A stretch of DNA of 20,871 nucleotides from a virus, in the IMG/VR virus record IMGVR_UViG_3300035670_001429, positions 1-20,871 of that record; one strand, given 5' to 3'. Positions 4,458 to 20,634 of the stretch are shown piece after piece (within the stretch, counting starts at the first letter, position 1; every line of letters starts with the position of its first letter). Under the pieces are notes generated by a model. The model saw only the letters and a program-made list of their open reading frames with translations, was not told where the DNA came from and searched no databases. The translations under genes were made by a program, and so were the position numbers.

Positions 4458-4868
4458 ATGGCCGATATTAACCTTAAAAGTTTATTAGTTCCCTCTAAGT
4501 CTATTGAAGTAGAGTACCCTGGCATGCCAGGTTTTGTAGTTAACGTAGCATTTTTAAGTAGAGAAACCTTAATCAATATTCGTAAGCGTGCTACCAAAAC
4601 AACCTTTAAAAATCGTCAAGCTCAAGAAGAACTCAATGACGAACTTTTTCTACAACTATATGTAGAAAACGCTGTAAAAGGTTGGAGTGGCTTAAAGTTT
4701 AGTTATCTTGAAAAACTAGCACCAGTTGATATAAGTCACCTAGATCCAGCTGATGAACTCGGCTTTACTAGTGAAAACGCTCTTTACTTAATGAAGAACA
4801 GCGGAGATTTTGACAGCTTTATTAGCGAACAGGTTACAGACCTGGGAAACTTTTCCAAGAGCAGCTAG
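4458..4868 (+). CDS. Tail assembly chaperone, short form (gpG-like)
   Basis: A 136-residue cytosolic protein expected to coat the tape measure during tail assembly and to be absent from the mature virion. The N terminus MADINLKSLLVPSKSIEVEY, then VNVAFLSRETLINIRKRAT and DELFLQLYVENAVKGWSGL (about residues 56-74), follows the plan of siphovirus chaperones upstream of the tape measure gene. Residues 130-131 are encoded by the slippery heptamer GGGAAAC at 4844-4850; without a slip, translation ends five codons later at TAG 4866-4868. No Shine-Dalgarno sequence is visible before the ATG, but a stop codon lies three codons upstream in frame, so there is no earlier start. Confidence 0.8.
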   Translation: MADINLKSLLVPSKSIEVEYPGMPGFVVNVAFLSRETLINIRKRATKTTFKNRQAQEELNDELFLQLYVENAVKGWSGLKFSYLEKLAPVDISHLDPADELGFTSENALYLMKNSGDFDSFISEQVTDLGNFSKSS

Positions 4869-5239
4869 AAGTTGTACAGCAACAATTAACTAACTACTTT
4901 GAAAATCAAGTAGCTGGCGGTGTTACCAAAGACATGTACTTAGATATGTGTGCTATGATGGGTACTGAGCCGGACGATAGTGAAATGCCTGTAGAGCTAG
5001 AAGATATGCCACTAGAGGTACAACAAGCTATGTTAGTTTATCGTATGTTGCGTGACGAGTGGGAAGGGTTTAGCGGCGCCTATTTAGGCAAAAGCTATAT
5101 TGGACTTACAGAAATACTGCAGTACACAGAAATAGAGCACAGTGAACATAAATTAATTGTTATGCTAATAAAAACCATAGACGGTATACGCAGTCAACAA
5201 ATCAGCAAATACCGAGAACAGAAAAAGCCTGCTAGTTAG
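4458..5239 (+). CDS. Tail assembly chaperone, frameshifted long form (gpGT-like)
   Basis: A -1 slip at 4844-4850 joins the first 131 residues of the short chaperone to 129 more residues read from base 4850, giving a predicted 260-residue fusion. The -1 frame has no stop from the slippery site to TAG at 5237-5239. Across the junction the sequence reads LGN then LFQEQLEVVQQQL. The extension contains VAGGVTKDMYLDMCAMMG, an acidic stretch EPDDSEMPVELEDMP, and a helical C terminus, typical of the second half of gpGT-like proteins, which binds both tube protein and tape measure. The ATG at 4934 lacks a ribosome binding site and lies inside the open -1 frame, so a separate gene there is unlikely. 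Slip efficiency cannot be judged from sequence. Confidence 0.82.
4844..4850 (+). promoter_or_regulatory. Slippery heptamer GGGAAAC for -1 ribosomal frameshifting
   Basis: The heptamer is in phase as G GGA AAC (zero-frame codons GGA at 4845 and AAC at 4848). It matches the X XXY YYZ rule and differs by one base from the lambda G/GT site GGGAAAG. A 5-bp inverted repeat (4830-4834 with 4840-4844) ends on its first G. A bulged 8-bp hairpin (4894-4902 with 4906-4913) lies about 43 bases downstream, probably too far to act as a classical stimulator. Confidence 0.85.
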
Positions 5240-5255
5240 TTTAGCAGGCTTTTTT
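5222..5255 (+). terminator. Strong intrinsic terminator before the tape measure gene
   Basis: A 13-bp stem (5222-5234 with 5242-5254), with an eight-pair GC-containing core (GCCTGCTA), closes a seven-base loop and runs into TTTTTT at 5250-5255. It overlaps the last codons and the stop of the long chaperone form. It separates the head/tube/chaperone unit from the tape measure unit, which has its own promoter just downstream. Confidence 0.85.
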
Positions 5256-5275
5256 ATTACTCAAAATTTTTGTGT

Positions 5276-5304
5276 TTGACATTTAACTACCCTTGTGGTA
5301 TAAT
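5276..5304 (+). promoter_or_regulatory. Consensus sigma-70-type promoter for the tape measure unit
   Basis: TTGACA at 5276-5281 and TATAAT at 5299-5304 are separated by 17 bases, and TGG directly before the -10 box gives an extended -10. Transcription would start near 5311, about 35 bases before the tape measure ATG. The last nine spacer bases, CCCTTGTGG, are almost the same as in the promoter at 19537-19565. Confidence 0.85.
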
Positions 5305-5345
5305 TGGTGTAAATCTGTGCAAATCTTATTAAGCCTGGAGTAAAT

Positions 5346-8300
5346 ATGGCAGGTAATAAAGTAAATATAGAACTCAATGCTATAGATAACGGTACGTTTA
5401 AGCAACGTATCAATGATGCCAAAGAGTTAAACAAACAAGTAGAACGAACACAACAACTGCTTACAGGAACAAAAACTGGTAATCGCGCTGCTCGTGCTAC
5501 TTATGGCGGCATGGCTGGCGGAGATGTTGCACAGTATAACGCTGCTCGTGGAGCAGCTGAAGCAGGTGGTGCTAGTGCTCGTGACTTTGCAGACCAAGCT
5601 CGTGGCCTTGGTGGATTAGTTCGCCTATACGCTACCTATGCTGCTAATATATTTGCAGTTAGTGCTGCCTTTAGCGCACTGCGTGAAGCAATGCAAACAG
5701 ATATTATGGTTAAAGGCCTGCAGCAGCTAAGTGCTGCAAGCGGCACTTCTATGGGTAGCCTAGCCAAGCAATTTAGCGATGTAACGGATGGAGCTATTAG
5801 TTTTCGTGAGTCTATGCAAGCAACTGCTAAGGCAGTAAGCAGCGGATTATCTAGTGCACAGTTTATTGAACTAGGCAAGGTAGCCAAAGGTGCTAGTCAA
5901 GCATTGGGCTTAGACATGAGTGATGCTGTTAGTCGTCTTACACGTGGTATTACTAAGCTAGAGCCTGAACTATTAGACGAATTAGGTTTGTTTACTAAAA
6001 CAGGTAAAGCTGCTGAAGAATATGCTCGCAAGGTAGGTAAAACTGAAGCACAGCTAACAGATTTTGAGCGCCGTCAAGCATTTGCTAATGCTGTGCTAGA
6101 AGAAGGGCGTCAAAAATTTGGCGAAATAGCGCAAGCTGGTAATCCCTATGATAAACTACTAGCACAACTAAAAGACGTTGCGCAAAGTATATTAAGTACA
6201 GTAAATAGCATTATTACTCCTATAGCTAAATTACTAGCGGATAACACCGGCTTAATAGGTGCAGCAATTGCACTAGCTGCCATAAAAATTACCAAGCAAG
6301 CTATACCAGCACTAACTAGTTGGCAAGCAGGTTTAAAGGACGCTGCAAAAGCTGCCAAAGATCGCATGGGCGAGGTAAATGAGGCTTTTCAAGGAGTTTT
6401 TTATACCAGAGCTGCTACAGCGGCTGGTATACCAGAATTAGAAAAGCAATTAAAGGCTGCTCAACAAAGCCTTACTAGGTCTGTGGTAGATAAGCGCACA
6501 CTAGAAAGTAGCAGCTTTAAGCAAGTAACTACCGCTAAAGAATTGAGTGATAAAGATCGTGCTAAGCTAGCCAAGGACATTGAAAAGTATGAAACTAGCG
6601 CACTAAAAAGTCGTCAAGATCAAGTTGCAGCAGCTAGAGAAATGCTGCGGGTTGACACAGAGATTAAAAATATTAGAAACCAGCTTAATACTGCCTATGA
6701 TAAAACCATTGATCAAATGGACAAGCAGGCTAAGTTTGGTAGTGCTATTTGGCAGCGTGAACAGCTTACCAGAGCTGCTCGTCAACGCTATGCTGAACTA
6801 GATATACGCAGTCGTGTATCAGAAAACGTTGACACAATGGGTGTGCGTGGTGCTGTGCAAGAATTGTACAAAGAAACTAATGCTAACAAAGACCTTAGCA
6901 GAATGTCTAAGTTTAAAACAGTTACACTGGGAACAATGGTTGCAGTAACTCGCGGCATAGAAATAGCTGCCAGCGCATTTAGCAGATTTTTCTTTGTAAT
7001 TGGTGCAGCAGTTGCAGTTTTCGAGGTGCTGGATAGTATATTTAGCAAAAACAGTGAACAAACACAAGCACTAAACAAAAGTTTAGGCATGTTAAATGAT
7101 ACTACACAAACAGCCAAAGATACCAGTGAAAAATATAAAGACAGTATTAGCAGCGATGCTATAATAGCTTATAGTAACAGCTTAGACGAACTAACACAAT
7201 CACTGAAAAATGTTAGTAAAGGTTTTGTAGAAGCACAAGAAGCTGCTGGATATTGGGATTTTATTTGGGATAGAATAAAAGATGTAACACCTTTTGTTGA
7301 TAATTTGCAAGAATCAACTTCAAAAAGTATTGGTAAAAGTTTAGTAGCAGCTATAAAAAGCGTACCAGAAGGCCCAATGCGAGACGAGCTTAGCCAAAAA
7401 TTCTTTAAAACACTAAAGCTAGGTGATAAGGCACTAGTTAATACAGAAACTTTCACAAACGCACTAAAAGGCCTAGACGCTGAAACTTATGCTAAAGTTC
7501 TCCAACAACTTGGCGTTGATCAGGGTAGTGTTAATGAAAAGTTTAAAGAAAGTACGCTTTATTTAAAAGATTTAGAGTCTAGTACCGAAGCCGCTACAAA
7601 AGCTCAACAAGCATTTAATAATAGTCTAAAAGATACTAGCCCAGTAGCACAATTTTTTAGAACTAGTATTAGTCTTGCAGATACATTATCTAAAGCTTTA
7701 AAGCAGGTAGATTTTAATGCTCAATTAGGTGCGTTGGATAAGCTATCTAAAATAGATTTAACAATTTTTGATCCTAGTGTAGCCCTTGAAATCGCAAAAC
7801 AAGTAAATGCTTATAAAGAAATAGCACCTAGATATAAGGAGTTAACAAGCATTGCAAGTGATGCACAAAAGCGCTTAGACCAACTAAATCAAATGGTTAT
7901 TGATTCGCAACAAATTTCTCCCGAAGATGGCTTAATTACTATAGATCCGCAATTACAAGATAAAATAATTCAAGTTCAGGGTATTATAGATACAGCTAAA
8001 AAAGCCGCTGATGATCTAAAAGAAAAGACAAAAGAAATAGCCAACGAAACACAACTATTAGTTGAGAGAAGTATTGGAGCAACTATTTCCAGAAGTTTAG
8101 ATGCTTTTAATACAAAGCTGCGACAGGCTGTAGTAGAGCAGCAAAAATATATACTAAGTAAATTTCCAGTTAGTACTGAAGCAGGTATTCAATTAAGCAA
8201 TAAGCTAGCCAAAGAACAAATAGACCTAGACTTTAAATTAATAAATAGTCAAGAAATGCTTAGTGCTTCGCAAGATTTACTACGTATTCAAATTCAGCGA

Positions 8301-10508
8301 CTAGCGGACATTGAAGAATTAAAAAATCTTCCTAAAACTGCAGAAAATATACCGCGTGCAGTAAAATTAGCTAGCAGAATAGGCGAAGCCGGACGAGCAG
8401 AGGAACTATTTTCTGGGGCAACACTAACAGAGCTTAGGGCAGCAGCCGTTTATAATCCAGCATTATATGCACTAGTAGAACGTAGACAAAAGCTAGCACT
8501 AGCCTCACAGCAAAAGGGCATTAAACTTTCTATAGAAGATTTTAATACTGCACTTGCCGAAATTGCCTTAGCTTCTGACGACAAGATAAAAGTATTAAAT
8601 ACTTTTATAAAAGGACTAGAAAATAGTATTAGCTCTGTTGTTACCGATACTGAGTATGGTATAGGAACAAAATCTGTTATGCTGCTACAATTGGCAGAAA
8701 TGCAACGCAAAAAATTAGCTGAAGAAAGTCAAAAGCAAATAGATATTGCGCTTAGAACCGGTAAAGAACTGGTTTCAACGGCTAAAGGAGATACTGCTAA
8801 AAAAGATGCACAAGAAGCTGCTAATGAGTTAGAACGCAGGGCTCGGCTAGAAGCACAAATTAATTTAGAACTATTTGATCAAGCAGAAGGTATAAGACAA
8901 GTAACTCAAAATAATCAAGACTATCTATCAATACTAGATATAAAATATCAAAAGTTAGATAAAGAACTAGCAATACAACGTGAGCTAAGAAACTTAGAAA
9001 CATTAAGACTTGAAAATAGATTAAAGCTAGAAGAAGAACTACTAGGTCAAGCTGACAGATTCAGAACATTAACTGATGATCAGATTAGAAATCAACGCAA
9101 GCGCATACAAGAACAACGAATAGAGAGAGAATTAGCAAATAACCTATTTCAATTACAAGAAAGCAGAGCACAAGCAGCCAGAGACGCTGTAAAATCTGGT
9201 GGAATTGGAGATGATTCGGGGGCTGCTACTCCGCAACAATTAAAGGCAAGTGAAGCATATTCACTAGAACTAGACCGCCTACAGGCACTAGAAAAACAAT
9301 ACAAACTAACAGCCGAAGGCCAGCGACAGCTACTAGAAGCACAAAATCAATTTTCACTGCGCGAAGAAGCCTATGCAGATGCATTTGTTCGCAGCTTTGA
9401 CCGGATGACTGATGCTGTTGTAGAGTTTACAAAAACAGGTAAACTTAACTTTAAAAACTTAATAAACAGCTTTTTAGAGGACTTATTACGTTTTGAGGTT
9501 AAAACTGCTATGCAGCAAACTCTTAGTAGTTTAGGTGGCGGCATGGGCCTAGCCAAAACTGTACTAGGTCGTATTGGCTTAGCCAGTGGTAAACAAACAC
9601 CAGAAACAATGCTGCAGCCTAAGGGCACTGAAGGTGATCCACTATATGTAACAATAGTTGGGCCGGGTATATCAAGCTATACAGGCCTAGGCAGAAAACC
9701 TGGCGAGCCTGCTCCTATAGTTAGCAGAAGTAGTCCAGATTTTTATACTGGCAGGCAATTTGAGGCAGATATACCAGCATCAAATACTAGTGAACTATTA
9801 GCAGCTAATCGTATACCTTTTATAGTTAGTGGAGCTGAGGGACCTTTTACCTCTGCAAGTACTATACCTGAACAGAAAATGCTTGGAGAAGATAGGTTTG
9901 AAATAACTGGTGGAAAAACACTGTCTCAAGGAGTAAGGTTTGGCGAACGCTGGGAAGCCGAAGTGACCCCTTCAATTGAAAGAGTTAGTGAAAATCTTAA
10001 ACGTAGTTTTACTATAGATAGTCAAGCTCTTACTACTAGCATGATTACTGGTTTTGAGGGCGGGTTCCAAGGATTGGCTAGTATAGTACAGCGAACAGCA
10101 CTGCAGGCTGGTGGAAGTTTGCTTGGTGGCTTATTTAAAAGTTTTGCTGGTGGTGGGTTTGGCACAGGTAATCTTTTTGGCAATTTAGACTTTGGCGGAT
10201 TTTTTGCTGATGGTGGTAATATACCAAAAGGCAGCTATGGCGTAGTAGGCGAAGCAGGACCCGAAATCGTAACAGGCCCAGCAACTGTTTATCCTATGCG
10301 CAGCGGTCAAGGTAATGTAGAAGTAGTAGTCAACAACTACAGCAATGCCAGCGCAGAAACTCGTGAAACTACCGACAGCCGTGGAAATCGTCGTATTGAG
10401 GTAATAGTTGGTGAAATGGTAGCTGGCGAAATGTCTAGACCAAACAGTGCTATGCAGCAATCACTAACAAATAATTTTGGTGCTAGACCAATAGTAGCAA
10501 GGAGATAA
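5346..10508 (+). CDS. Tail tape measure protein
   Basis: A 1720-residue protein that sets tail length, is wrapped by tube subunits, and is ejected into the host ahead of the DNA. Most of it is helical and Gln/Lys/Glu/Ala-rich, consistent with coiled coil. Two hydrophobic segments, at about residues 295-315 (LIGAAIALAAIKI) and 546-565 (FFFVIGAAVAVFEV), may insert into the host membrane. The C-terminal region has a typical tape measure tail: LNFKNLINSFLEDLL (about residue 1375), then FADGGNIPKGSYGVVGEAGPE (about residues 1619-1638), then VEVVVNNYSNASAETRE. At about 0.15 nm per residue this would give a tail near 0.26 micrometre, an estimate only. ATG 5346 is preceded by GGAG at 5337-5340. The gene is the first in its own promoter-driven unit. 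Confidence 0.95.
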   Translation: MAGNKVNIELNAIDNGTFKQRINDAKELNKQVERTQQLLTGTKTGNRAARATYGGMAGGDVAQYNAARGAAEAGGASARDFADQARGLGGLVRLYATYAANIFAVSAAFSALREAMQTDIMVKGLQQLSAASGTSMGSLAKQFSDVTDGAISFRESMQATAKAVSSGLSSAQFIELGKVAKGASQALGLDMSDAVSRLTRGITKLEPELLDELGLFTKTGKAAEEYARKVGKTEAQLTDFERRQAFANAVLEEGRQKFGEIAQAGNPYDKLLAQLKDVAQSILSTVNSIITPIAKLLADNTGLIGAAIALAAIKITKQAIPALTSWQAGLKDAAKAAKDRMGEVNEAFQGVFYTRAATAAGIPELEKQLKAAQQSLTRSVVDKRTLESSSFKQVTTAKELSDKDRAKLAKDIEKYETSALKSRQDQVAAAREMLRVDTEIKNIRNQLNTAYDKTIDQMDKQAKFGSAIWQREQLTRAARQRYAELDIRSRVSENVDTMGVRGAVQELYKETNANKDLSRMSKFKTVTLGTMVAVTRGIEIAASAFSRFFFVIGAAVAVFEVLDSIFSKNSEQTQALNKSLGMLNDTTQTAKDTSEKYKDSISSDAIIAYSNSLDELTQSLKNVSKGFVEAQEAAGYWDFIWDRIKDVTPFVDNLQESTSKSIGKSLVAAIKSVPEGPMRDELSQKFFKTLKLGDKALVNTETFTNALKGLDAETYAKVLQQLGVDQGSVNEKFKESTLYLKDLESSTEAATKAQQAFNNSLKDTSPVAQFFRTSISLADTLSKALKQVDFNAQLGALDKLSKIDLTIFDPSVALEIAKQVNAYKEIAPRYKELTSIASDAQKRLDQLNQMVIDSQQISPEDGLITIDPQLQDKIIQVQGIIDTAKKAADDLKEKTKEIANETQLLVERSIGATISRSLDAFNTKLRQAVVEQQKYILSKFPVSTEAGIQLSNKLAKEQIDLDFKLINSQEMLSASQDLLRIQIQRLADIEELKNLPKTAENIPRAVKLASRIGEAGRAEELFSGATLTELRAAAVYNPALYALVERRQKLALASQQKGIKLSIEDFNTALAEIALASDDKIKVLNTFIKGLENSISSVVTDTEYGIGTKSVMLLQLAEMQRKKLAEESQKQIDIALRTGKELVSTAKGDTAKKDAQEAANELERRARLEAQINLELFDQAEGIRQVTQNNQDYLSILDIKYQKLDKELAIQRELRNLETLRLENRLKLEEELLGQADRFRTLTDDQIRNQRKRIQEQRIERELANNLFQLQESRAQAARDAVKSGGIGDDSGAATPQQLKASEAYSLELDRLQALEKQYKLTAEGQRQLLEAQNQFSLREEAYADAFVRSFDRMTDAVVEFTKTGKLNFKNLINSFLEDLLRFEVKTAMQQTLSSLGGGMGLAKTVLGRIGLASGKQTPETMLQPKGTEGDPLYVTIVGPGISSYTGLGRKPGEPAPIVSRSSPDFYTGRQFEADIPASNTSELLAANRIPFIVSGAEGPFTSASTIPEQKMLGEDRFEITGGKTLSQGVRFGERWEAEVTPSIERVSENLKRSFTIDSQALTTSMITGFEGGFQGLASIVQRTALQAGGSLLGGLFKSFAGGGFGTGNLFGNLDFGGFFADGGNIPKGSYGVVGEAGPEIVTGPATVYPMRSGQGNVEVVVNNYSNASAETRETTDSRGNRRIEVIVGEMVAGEMSRPNSAMQQSLTNNFGARPIVARR

Positions 10509-19494: not shown

Positions 19495-19533
19495 AATGCC
19501 CTGCTTAATATTGATTAGGCAGGGCATTTTTTA
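19495..19533 (+). terminator. Strong intrinsic terminator after the fibre gene
   Basis: AATGCCCTGC (19495-19504) pairs perfectly with GCAGGGCATT (19519-19528), and the stem continues inward for five more pairs including one G-U, leaving an ATTG loop. A run of T follows the stem. It ends the tape measure-to-fibre unit. Confidence 0.9.
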
Positions 19534-19536
19534 TAG

Positions 19537-19565
19537 TTGACAACCTCTTGCCCTTGTGCTATAAT
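19537..19565 (+). promoter_or_regulatory. Consensus sigma-70-type promoter for the third unit
   Basis: TTGACA at 19537-19542 and TATAAT at 19560-19565 have a 17-base spacer, with TGC before the -10 box as an extended -10. The spacer ends CCCTTGTGC, matching the tape measure promoter at the same distance. Transcription would start near 19572, leaving a leader of about 117 bases before the next main gene. Confidence 0.85.
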
Positions 19566-19613
19566 ATACAAGTGTTATAAAAAGGTTTAAATATTTTTAC
19601 TTGACAACGGCAG

Positions 19614-19634
19614 TGCCAATACAATCAGTTGGCA
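19614..19634 (+). promoter_or_regulatory. Inverted repeat in the leader, possible operator or hairpin
   Basis: TGCCAA (19614-19619) and TTGGCA (19629-19634) are perfect reverse complements nine bases apart. The dyad lies about 45-60 bases downstream of the expected transcription start. It could be a protein-binding site or a small RNA hairpin. With six-base arms it could also be chance. Confidence 0.3.
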
Positions 19635-19650
19635 GACTAGCTACAATTAA

Positions 19651-19689
19651 ATGTGTATGTTAACCGCTGCTAACGTAGAGGAGGCGTAA
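19651..19689 (+). CDS. Possible 12-codon leader peptide
   Basis: ATG at 19651 opens a frame encoding MCMLTAANVEEA. Its stop TAA (19687-19689) overlaps the next gene's ATG as TAATG, the same coupling arrangement seen at two other gene junctions here. No ribosome binding site is visible before 19651, and the frame may be accidental. If translated, it would run ribosomes onto the AGGAGG site at 19679-19684 and could couple translation. Confidence 0.25.
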   Translation: MCMLTAANVEEA

Positions 19690-20033
19690 TGGACGTTGTA
19701 GAAAATCACAGCCTGGTACAAACAATTAGCGTGGCAGGAATGGCTATTATCGCCCTAGGAGTGGGCATACAAAAACTAGTAAAAGAGTGGCGCAGTACTG
19801 ACGCAGAAACTAGTGTAATTAAAATGATGCACGAGGAGTTGGAGCGTATGGGTACACAAAATGCCAAGCTTACCGAAGAATTAACCAAGCTGCAAAATGA
19901 GATTGTTGAGCTTAACAATCAACTAGTTAAATTTAGTATTGAAAATAACAAATTACAGCAGGATGTAGCTGCACTAACCCTAGAACTAAATAGTTTTAAA
20001 AAATTAGCTGCAATAAGAAAGGTCAAGGTGTAG
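19689..20033 (+). CDS. Membrane-anchored coiled-coil protein, function unknown
   Basis: A 114-residue protein with one predicted transmembrane helix (residues about 9-27, LVQTISVAGMAIIALGVGI) and a long C-terminal coiled coil (about 47-106). From Leu61 to Leu100 the heptad is regular: Leu, Ile, Val or Phe alternate at 4- and 3-residue spacing, with one polar exception, Asn86. Before the helix the flank is acidic (Asp2, Glu5); after it is basic (Lys29, Lys32, Arg35). The positive-inside rule therefore predicts C-in, which argues against an inner-membrane spanin (N-in, periplasmic coil). A lysis accessory, a membrane scaffold or a virion component remain possible; I do not recognise the family. 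AGGAGG (19679-19684) is a near-ideal ribosome binding site, and the gene is first in its own promoter-driven unit. Confidence 0.75.
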   Translation: MDVVENHSLVQTISVAGMAIIALGVGIQKLVKEWRSTDAETSVIKMMHEELERMGTQNAKLTEELTKLQNEIVELNNQLVKFSIENNKLQQDVAALTLELNSFKKLAAIRKVKV

Positions 20034-20034
20034 T

Positions 20035-20634
20035 ATGGCTCCTGCAAAAGTTAATTTTAAAATATTTCAAGGTACTACTTTTAGGCAAGTATATCGCTGG
20101 GAAACTGATACAAAATATTATGCTAATATTCAAGCTATAAGTAAAAGTGGGCCTTGCATAATAACTACTAGTGCTGCACACAGCATACCACCAGGCTGGC
20201 GCATTAAGGTTACCAATGTTGTTGGCATGAAAGAAATTAATAGTACTGGCGATGATGACTATCACTTTGTTAATGATGTTACCGCTAGTACACTAACTGT
20301 TAATAGTATTAATAGTACTGGATATAGTAACTATACTAGTGGCGGTACTATTGAGTACTATGCCCCATATCCGCTACAGTATTATACAGCTAGAATGCAA
20401 ATTAGAGCTAATGTAAATAGTGATACAATTATTTTAGCATTAAATAGTAATGCTGGTGGTGGTATTGTACTAGACACTGCAAATAGTACAATAACACTAA
20501 CCATAACTGCTCAACAAACAGAGCAGTTTAATTTTACCAGCGCCGTATATGGCATGGAATTAACAGATACTAGTGGTGTTGTTACTCCTTTTATTACCGG
20601 TAATATAATTGTAGTAAAGGATGTGATACGATGA
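20035..20634 (+). CDS. Beta-rich tail fibre/baseplate adaptor-like protein
   Basis: A 199-residue protein with no membrane segment, rich in Thr, Asn, Ser and Ile. The N-terminal pattern VNFKIFQGTTFRQVYRWET (about residues 6-24) and the closing pattern YGMELTDTSGVVTPFITGNI (about 171-190) resemble the Ig-like N-terminal adaptor domain of BppU-type baseplate proteins. An insertion (about 30-110, with TTSAAHSIPPGWRIKVTNV) splits the two ends. It probably anchors the collagen-like fibre encoded next, with which it overlaps by ATGA. It begins one base after the coiled-coil gene's stop, so the three genes appear to be one translated unit. The adaptor role is inferred from pattern and context. Confidence 0.6.
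   Translation: MAPAKVNFKIFQGTTFRQVYRWETDTKYYANIQAISKSGPCIITTSAAHSIPPGWRIKVTNVVGMKEINSTGDDDYHFVNDVTASTLTVNSINSTGYSNYTSGGTIEYYAPYPLQYYTARMQIRANVNSDTIILALNSNAGGGIVLDTANSTITLTITAQQTEQFNFTSAVYGMELTDTSGVVTPFITGNIIVVKDVIR

Follow-up and report, generated by a model that had tools for sequence, protein, structure and literature searches.

A conserved spacer word at two strong promoters of a T5-like phage lineage probably marks late genes

Two promoters in a 20,871-base virus record (39.7% G+C; the whole record is called the window here), which we name P1 and P2, share the 3' half of their spacer. Comparison of relatives at the level of sequence identified this half, with the consensus RCCCTTRTG at −22 to −14, as a selected element tied to the P1 and P2 positions. 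The word probably marks late genes, in preference to a coincidental match or a recent copy; most likely it serves as a promoter element of the late class, in combination with host sigma70. A more specific reading, a late-class identity element read by the polymerase together with a phage factor, has in our judgement an even chance of being right; its timing, its strength and its reader are what we infer.

The window is probably a fragment of a genome. It carries a tail module of T5-like type with genes for a head-tail adaptor, tail terminator, major tail protein, tail assembly chaperone, tape-measure protein, central tail protein J and a collagen-like fibre. In tblastn searches, the tape-measure and major tail proteins matched Demerecviridae phages and retrieved about 900 phage records, mostly T5-like, with 25–35% identity among the matches listed. 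A near-identity search of cultured phages yielded no close relative. P1 and P2 both lie in this late tail module, the placement of T5-type late promoters, and the terminators, promoter elements, leader and downstream genes mapped below are on the + strand. The first gene downstream of P1 is the tape-measure gene (5346..10508; PHROG 3779, E 4e-47), about 40 bp from the end of the −10 hexamer. P2 is located ahead of a coiled-coil/adhesin module. Its first downstream gene, E114 (19689..20033), follows the −10 hexamer after about 125 bp, and the putative product has a hydrophobic N-terminal segment and an otherwise coiled-coil-like sequence. The second gene (20035..20634) belongs to PHROG 1084, a family without assigned function, and in an 82-kb relative collagen-like and lectin-domain proteins are encoded among the genes 3' of E114. 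Apart from the promoters, a GGGAAAC slippery heptamer was observed in the correct frame at 4844-4850, shortly before the tail chaperone ORF (4458-4868) ends. The −1 frame beyond it is open into ORF 4934-5239, and a programmed −1 frameshift of the lambda G/GT type is likely at this site.

P1 (5276-5304) reads TTGACA TTTAACTA CCCTTGTG G TATAAT and P2 (19537-19565) reads TTGACA ACCTCTTG CCCTTGTG C TATAAT. The twin promoters with a shared spacer block that an earlier note had described were thus found letter for letter at 5276 and 19537. The CCCTTGTG block spans −21 to −14, and its final four bases, TGTG, constitute the extended −10 (TRTGn). Both sites have the complete set of sigma70 extended −10 features (TTGACA, a spacer of 16-18 bp, TATAAT and TGn), and orthologues keep them. 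An intrinsic terminator lies directly 5' of each promoter. At P1, this rho-independent terminator (5222..5256) consists of a 14-bp hairpin with a folding energy of −18.9 kcal/mol and a T tract that is kept in relatives. It is followed by an A/T block, AAATTTTT (5264..5271, −47 to −40), which resembles an UP element and may act as one, the −35 hexamer (5276..5281), the spacer element ACCCTTGTG (5289..5297, −22 to −14, extended −10 TGTG included) and the −10 hexamer (5299..5304), with a transcription start predicted near 5311. At P2, the terminator (19495..19534; 15 pairs, −22.7 kcal/mol) has a T tract that overlaps the UP position. The −35 hexamer (19537..19542), the spacer element GCCCTTGTG (19550..19558, −22 to −14, again with TGTG) and the −10 hexamer (19560..19565) follow, and transcription is predicted to start near 19572.

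The predicted leader at the 5' end of the P2 transcript (19572..19688) is partly conserved in relatives and matched no Rfam family. A second promoter within it, suggested by a TTGACA near 19601, was rejected since the sequence offers no fitting −10 at 16-18 bp. In one branch (relatives L256-L305) the leader contains a short hairpin, ATCTAAA-GGC...GCC-TTTAGAT, in which some changes are apparently paired.

The full pattern TTGACA-N8-CCCTTGTG-N-TATAAT occurs in the window at P1 and P2 only. The same holds for TTGACA-N15-19-TATAAT, for which shuffled sequences gave a mean of 0.04 sites, none of 100 shuffles containing two. In a promoter scan of the window P1 and P2 were the sole sites matching 12 of 12 hexamer positions, the total of 52 sites against 47.6 expected being at chance level. 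Scanning viral contigs for the pattern gave at least 118 loci. Among the matches listed with recognisable neighbours, most lie just upstream of a tape-measure gene or of E114 homologues; the remaining loci seem to be scattered, unrelated phages, at about the level expected by chance from the number of strong promoters. In five unrelated phage contigs (L025, L033, L038, L062, L113) the same word is part of an inverted repeat like GGGGTTGA-N-TCAACCCC around the −35.

Such a scan is biased towards the word; relatives were therefore re-collected blind to the motif by protein similarity, starting from the chaperone gene that precedes P1 and from E114, which follows P2. Every relative used to assess conservation is a virus contig from a metagenome. 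A terminator followed by a promoter of the TTGACA-17-TATAAT type was present at nearly every locus long enough to include P1. P2 was found at most E114 loci and was absent at five (L236, L241, L242, L250, L252). In the first P1 set, 17 of 25 distinct spacers carried exact CCCTTGTG. At P2 it was present in 25 of 34 distinct spacers, with 27 different upstream halves, and most of the remaining P2 spacers had one- or two-base variants of it. The earlier note had suggested looking for further copies and for conservation; the window holds the two copies only, and many relatives keep the word at both places. A more distant P1 set added words such as GCCTGTGTG, GCTGGTATG and GGTCACATG, and the more distant P1 promoters retained no more than a loose pattern of the kind TGCY-N3-RTG. 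In a branch exemplified by G012, G013, G017 and G019, P1 carries CCATATGTG, GGTTGCATG or GCTCACATG and P2 retains GCCCTTGTG. As a separate observation, the P1 promoters of another branch (L204-L226) have an inverted repeat, GACCAT-N10-ATGGTC, across the −10, possibly an operator.

Changes per site were counted by parsimony on protein trees of 92 P1 and 39 P2 promoters; as the trees were built on short proteins (114-136 residues), the counts are rough. Both trees displayed three zones: the hexamers and TG barely change, the early spacer and −13 change freely, and −22 to −16 is constrained. On the P1 tree, the −35 hexamer had 0.5 changes per site, −29 to −23 a mean of 23.6, and −13 had 37; −22 to −16 was intermediate with 5-17 changes, and −15 and −14 had none. 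On the P2 tree the block was nearly frozen, with 0, 1, 3, 3, 0, 0 and 5 changes at −22 to −16 versus 9-15 at −28 to −24; the first spacer half had about 13 per site and most block sites 0-3. Rank tests on the P1 and P2 trees gave p = 0.006 and 0.002, respectively. Conservation extends one base upstream of the block noted earlier, with A or G at −22. The A/T block at −47 to −40 of P1 was nearly frozen as well (almost no changes at −46, −45 and −41 over the 92 promoters); at P2 the T tract of the terminator occupies its place.

The word is also specific to these positions within genomes. Fifteen related records were scanned for TTGACA-N17-TATAAT with at most one mismatch, and each promoter's position, strand and spacing served for its manual assignment to P1 or P2. 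If one mismatch is allowed, the word was present in 18 of 24 P1/P2 promoters and in none of 86 other strong promoters (Fisher 7e-16; as the records share ancestry, the p-value assumes more independence than there is, though the contrast is large). Another promoter in three related records (G012:82, G013:9212, G019:42708) keeps its own spacer 3' half, CTAGGTCTGC, with a variable first half, which hints that spacer 3' halves may be constrained at several promoters in these phages. In the 82-kb relative (G002 25268-29469, in L139) we further observed a second promoter family, mostly with an 18-bp spacer and a shared TTGACACGCnnGCAAAAATTATGnTATAATTTTGGCGCC-like word of its own, that surrounds a cluster of small D5-like HTH genes.

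We propose that P1 and P2 are two restart promoters of the late module in this T5-like phage lineage. The terminator would stop the upstream transcript before each of them. A full-consensus sigma70 promoter, with an AT-rich upstream block, TTGACA, a 17-bp spacer, extended −10 and TATAAT, would then begin a new transcript, at the tape-measure gene from P1 and at the E114/adhesin module from P2. The late-class element may be read on top of the ordinary sigma70 contacts and would set the timing or strength with which host RNA polymerase, with phage factors bound to it, uses promoters that would otherwise be always on. No Sigma70_r4 or Sigma70_r2 domains were found in the related genomes searched, which agrees with transcription through the sigma70 of the host, as in T5 (PMC7472727).

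The leading candidates for the reader are D5-like DNA-binding proteins encoded by the phages themselves, though the link is circumstantial. D5 acts in T5 late transcription. Relatives of T5 encode this protein (T5.118; PMC8624392), and in our set 9 of 14 records carried D5-like regulators (PHROG 323), full-length in three; in several genomes the only D5-like proteins were small HTH paralogues. In four related fragments and in the window no D5-like gene was found, and a small D5-like protein gave only weak, uninformative matches to solved structures. Tentatively, and as a possibility on the doubtful side of even, a phage regulator, perhaps D5-like, may read the −35/−10 spacer of otherwise full-consensus sigma70 promoters and thereby activate late transcription with no new sigma factor needed. 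The earlier note had named a regulator site as one option. The block may be such a site, but in one branch P1 and P2 of the same genome carry different words. Since P1 differs there while P2 keeps GCCCTTGTG, no single factor can require the word at both, and these divergent P1 words are the main evidence arguing against a single obligatory reader.

A serious rival, possible although rather doubtful in our estimate, is that host RNA polymerase alone reads the element, −22 to −14 tuning open-complex formation, promoter escape or sensitivity to supercoiling with no phage factor involved. Contacts of the beta-prime zipper and sigma region 3 with −18/−17, adjoining the extended −10, are known (PMC5101437), and spacer composition alone can shift promoter strength, timing and the response to supercoiling (PMC8695583). 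The TTRTG part agrees with the general preference among 143 unrelated phage promoters, and the drift of the P1 word with the loose TGCY-N3-RTG kept is more what one would expect of polymerase contacts than of a fixed operator. Against this stands the CCC part. At −21 to −19 C is rare in ordinary phage promoters (frequencies 0.11, 0.09 and 0.15), the expected frequency of CCCTTG given TG in the 143 promoters is about 9e-5 (an independence estimate), and CCCTTGTG within one mismatch occurred in none of the 143, which all have the form TTGACA-N14-TGN-TATAAT. The other strong promoters of the same genomes also lack the word, though early promoters should profit from such tuning too. Selection for strength, another suggestion of the earlier note, therefore holds for TTGTG, which fits the preference of strong promoters, but not for CCC at −21 to −19, which runs contrary to it; a generic strong-promoter consensus was rejected for the same reason.

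Bacterial and archaeal genomes gave only 56 matches to the exact pattern in 257 Gb, mostly in gut Clostridia, and in 369 genomes drawn from the class of L317 there was one match for GCCCTTGTGNTATAAT and none for a scrambled block. With the word nearly absent from bacteria outside Clostridia, a common host promoter form was rejected as well; this near-absence and the disfavoured CCC together indicate that the word reflects neither generic strength nor a common host form. Convergent use in Clostridia was likewise dismissed, as the matching genomes have 45-194 perfect TTGACA-N17-TATAAT sites each and the matches are at about chance level by our estimate. Of the 46 clostridial matches, 17 are followed by a tRNA gene at a distance of about 80 bp or less (L318, L319, L321, L323, L324, L325, L328, L331, L338, L339, L341, L342, L351, L354, L356, L358, L362).

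Unlikely, in our view, is an old copying or exchange of one promoter cassette between both places, by which the shared word would mainly reflect shared ancestry. There is room for such a cassette since P2 of the window (TTATAG TTGACAACCTCTTGCCCTTGTGCTATAAT) has an almost identical counterpart in the P1 of a distant branch (L016: TTATAG TTGACAACTCCTTGCCCTTGTGCTATAAT). Ancestry alone, however, cannot explain retention of the block within a lineage in which the first spacer half was replaced repeatedly, and the flanks of P1 and P2 in the window have little excess similarity. The recent duplication considered in the earlier note was rejected: the flanks are nearly unrelated, hardly more alike than at other offsets, and orthologues in divergent lineages carry the word at both positions. 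Coincidence between two strong promoters is highly improbable; a lucky agreement between two spacers of the same genome is conceivable, and by our estimate unrelated phages and Clostridia contain the exact full pattern about as often as chance predicts, but the word is conserved at both orthologous places in the motif-blind samples, the contrast within genomes is strong, and divergent proteins and spacers indicate that the orthologous loci are not near-identical copies of one genome.

The spacer element lacks dyad symmetry, a point against the favoured reading. Several known promoter types were tried and rejected. A phage sigma-factor promoter of the T4 late type does not agree with the perfect −35 and the lack of sigma domains in the related records searched. 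The site of a spacer-bound MerR-type activator would have a 19-20 bp spacer with a dyad; here the spacer is 17 bp and the block non-palindromic. A dyad operator of the Arc/Mnt type between the hexamers was dismissed as well: inspection by eye showed no dyad in CCCTTGTG or in the flanks common to both promoters, and the partial dyads read by eye around the −10 of P2 are not common to P1.

Separate strong promoters within a late module, which had been thought unusual, are not unusual for this kind of phage: Escherichia phage T5 (Demerecviridae) has the late promoters PG25 and PJ5 (PMC7472727), strong sigma70-type promoters in the homologous tail module. PG25 lies directly behind a rho-independent terminator beside the tape-measure gene, although after it, whereas P1 is located before; PJ5 is further upstream in the tail module than PG25. 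Both T5 promoters (PG25, TTGATA-N17-TATAAT; PJ5, TTGACA-N17-TATACT) lack TG and CCCTTGTG, and P1 and P2 do not share their sequence features. T5 promoter classes are also reported to differ mainly in the discriminator and not in the spacer (PMC7472727). Curvibacter phage P26059A (KY981271), the one cultured phage in which an E114 homologue was found and the nearest cultured relative found for E114, has a comparable tail module order; however, this promoter type is missing upstream of both the tape-measure gene and the E114 homologue, and the strong promoters listed for the genome all lack the word. Within the block, TGTGN corresponds exactly to the TRTGn (−16) element of extended −10 promoters, but at P1 and P2 conservation continues to −22 (RCCCT), alongside a perfect −35. 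T4 early promoters have an extended consensus with conserved bases outside both hexamers and are used by host sigma70 polymerase. They differ in being early and not late, in sequence, and in a conservation spread over the promoter versus the spacer block seen here.

In conclusion, a widespread relative of T5 has two proposed late restart promoters whose conserved spacer element is absent from its other strong promoters, and it encodes D5-like proteins; this provides a specific sequence and specific proteins to probe. If a phage regulator does read the spacer, the element would offer a concrete way into the unsolved early-to-late switch of T5-like phages. The promoter spacer, usually regarded as free to vary, can undergo strong selection.
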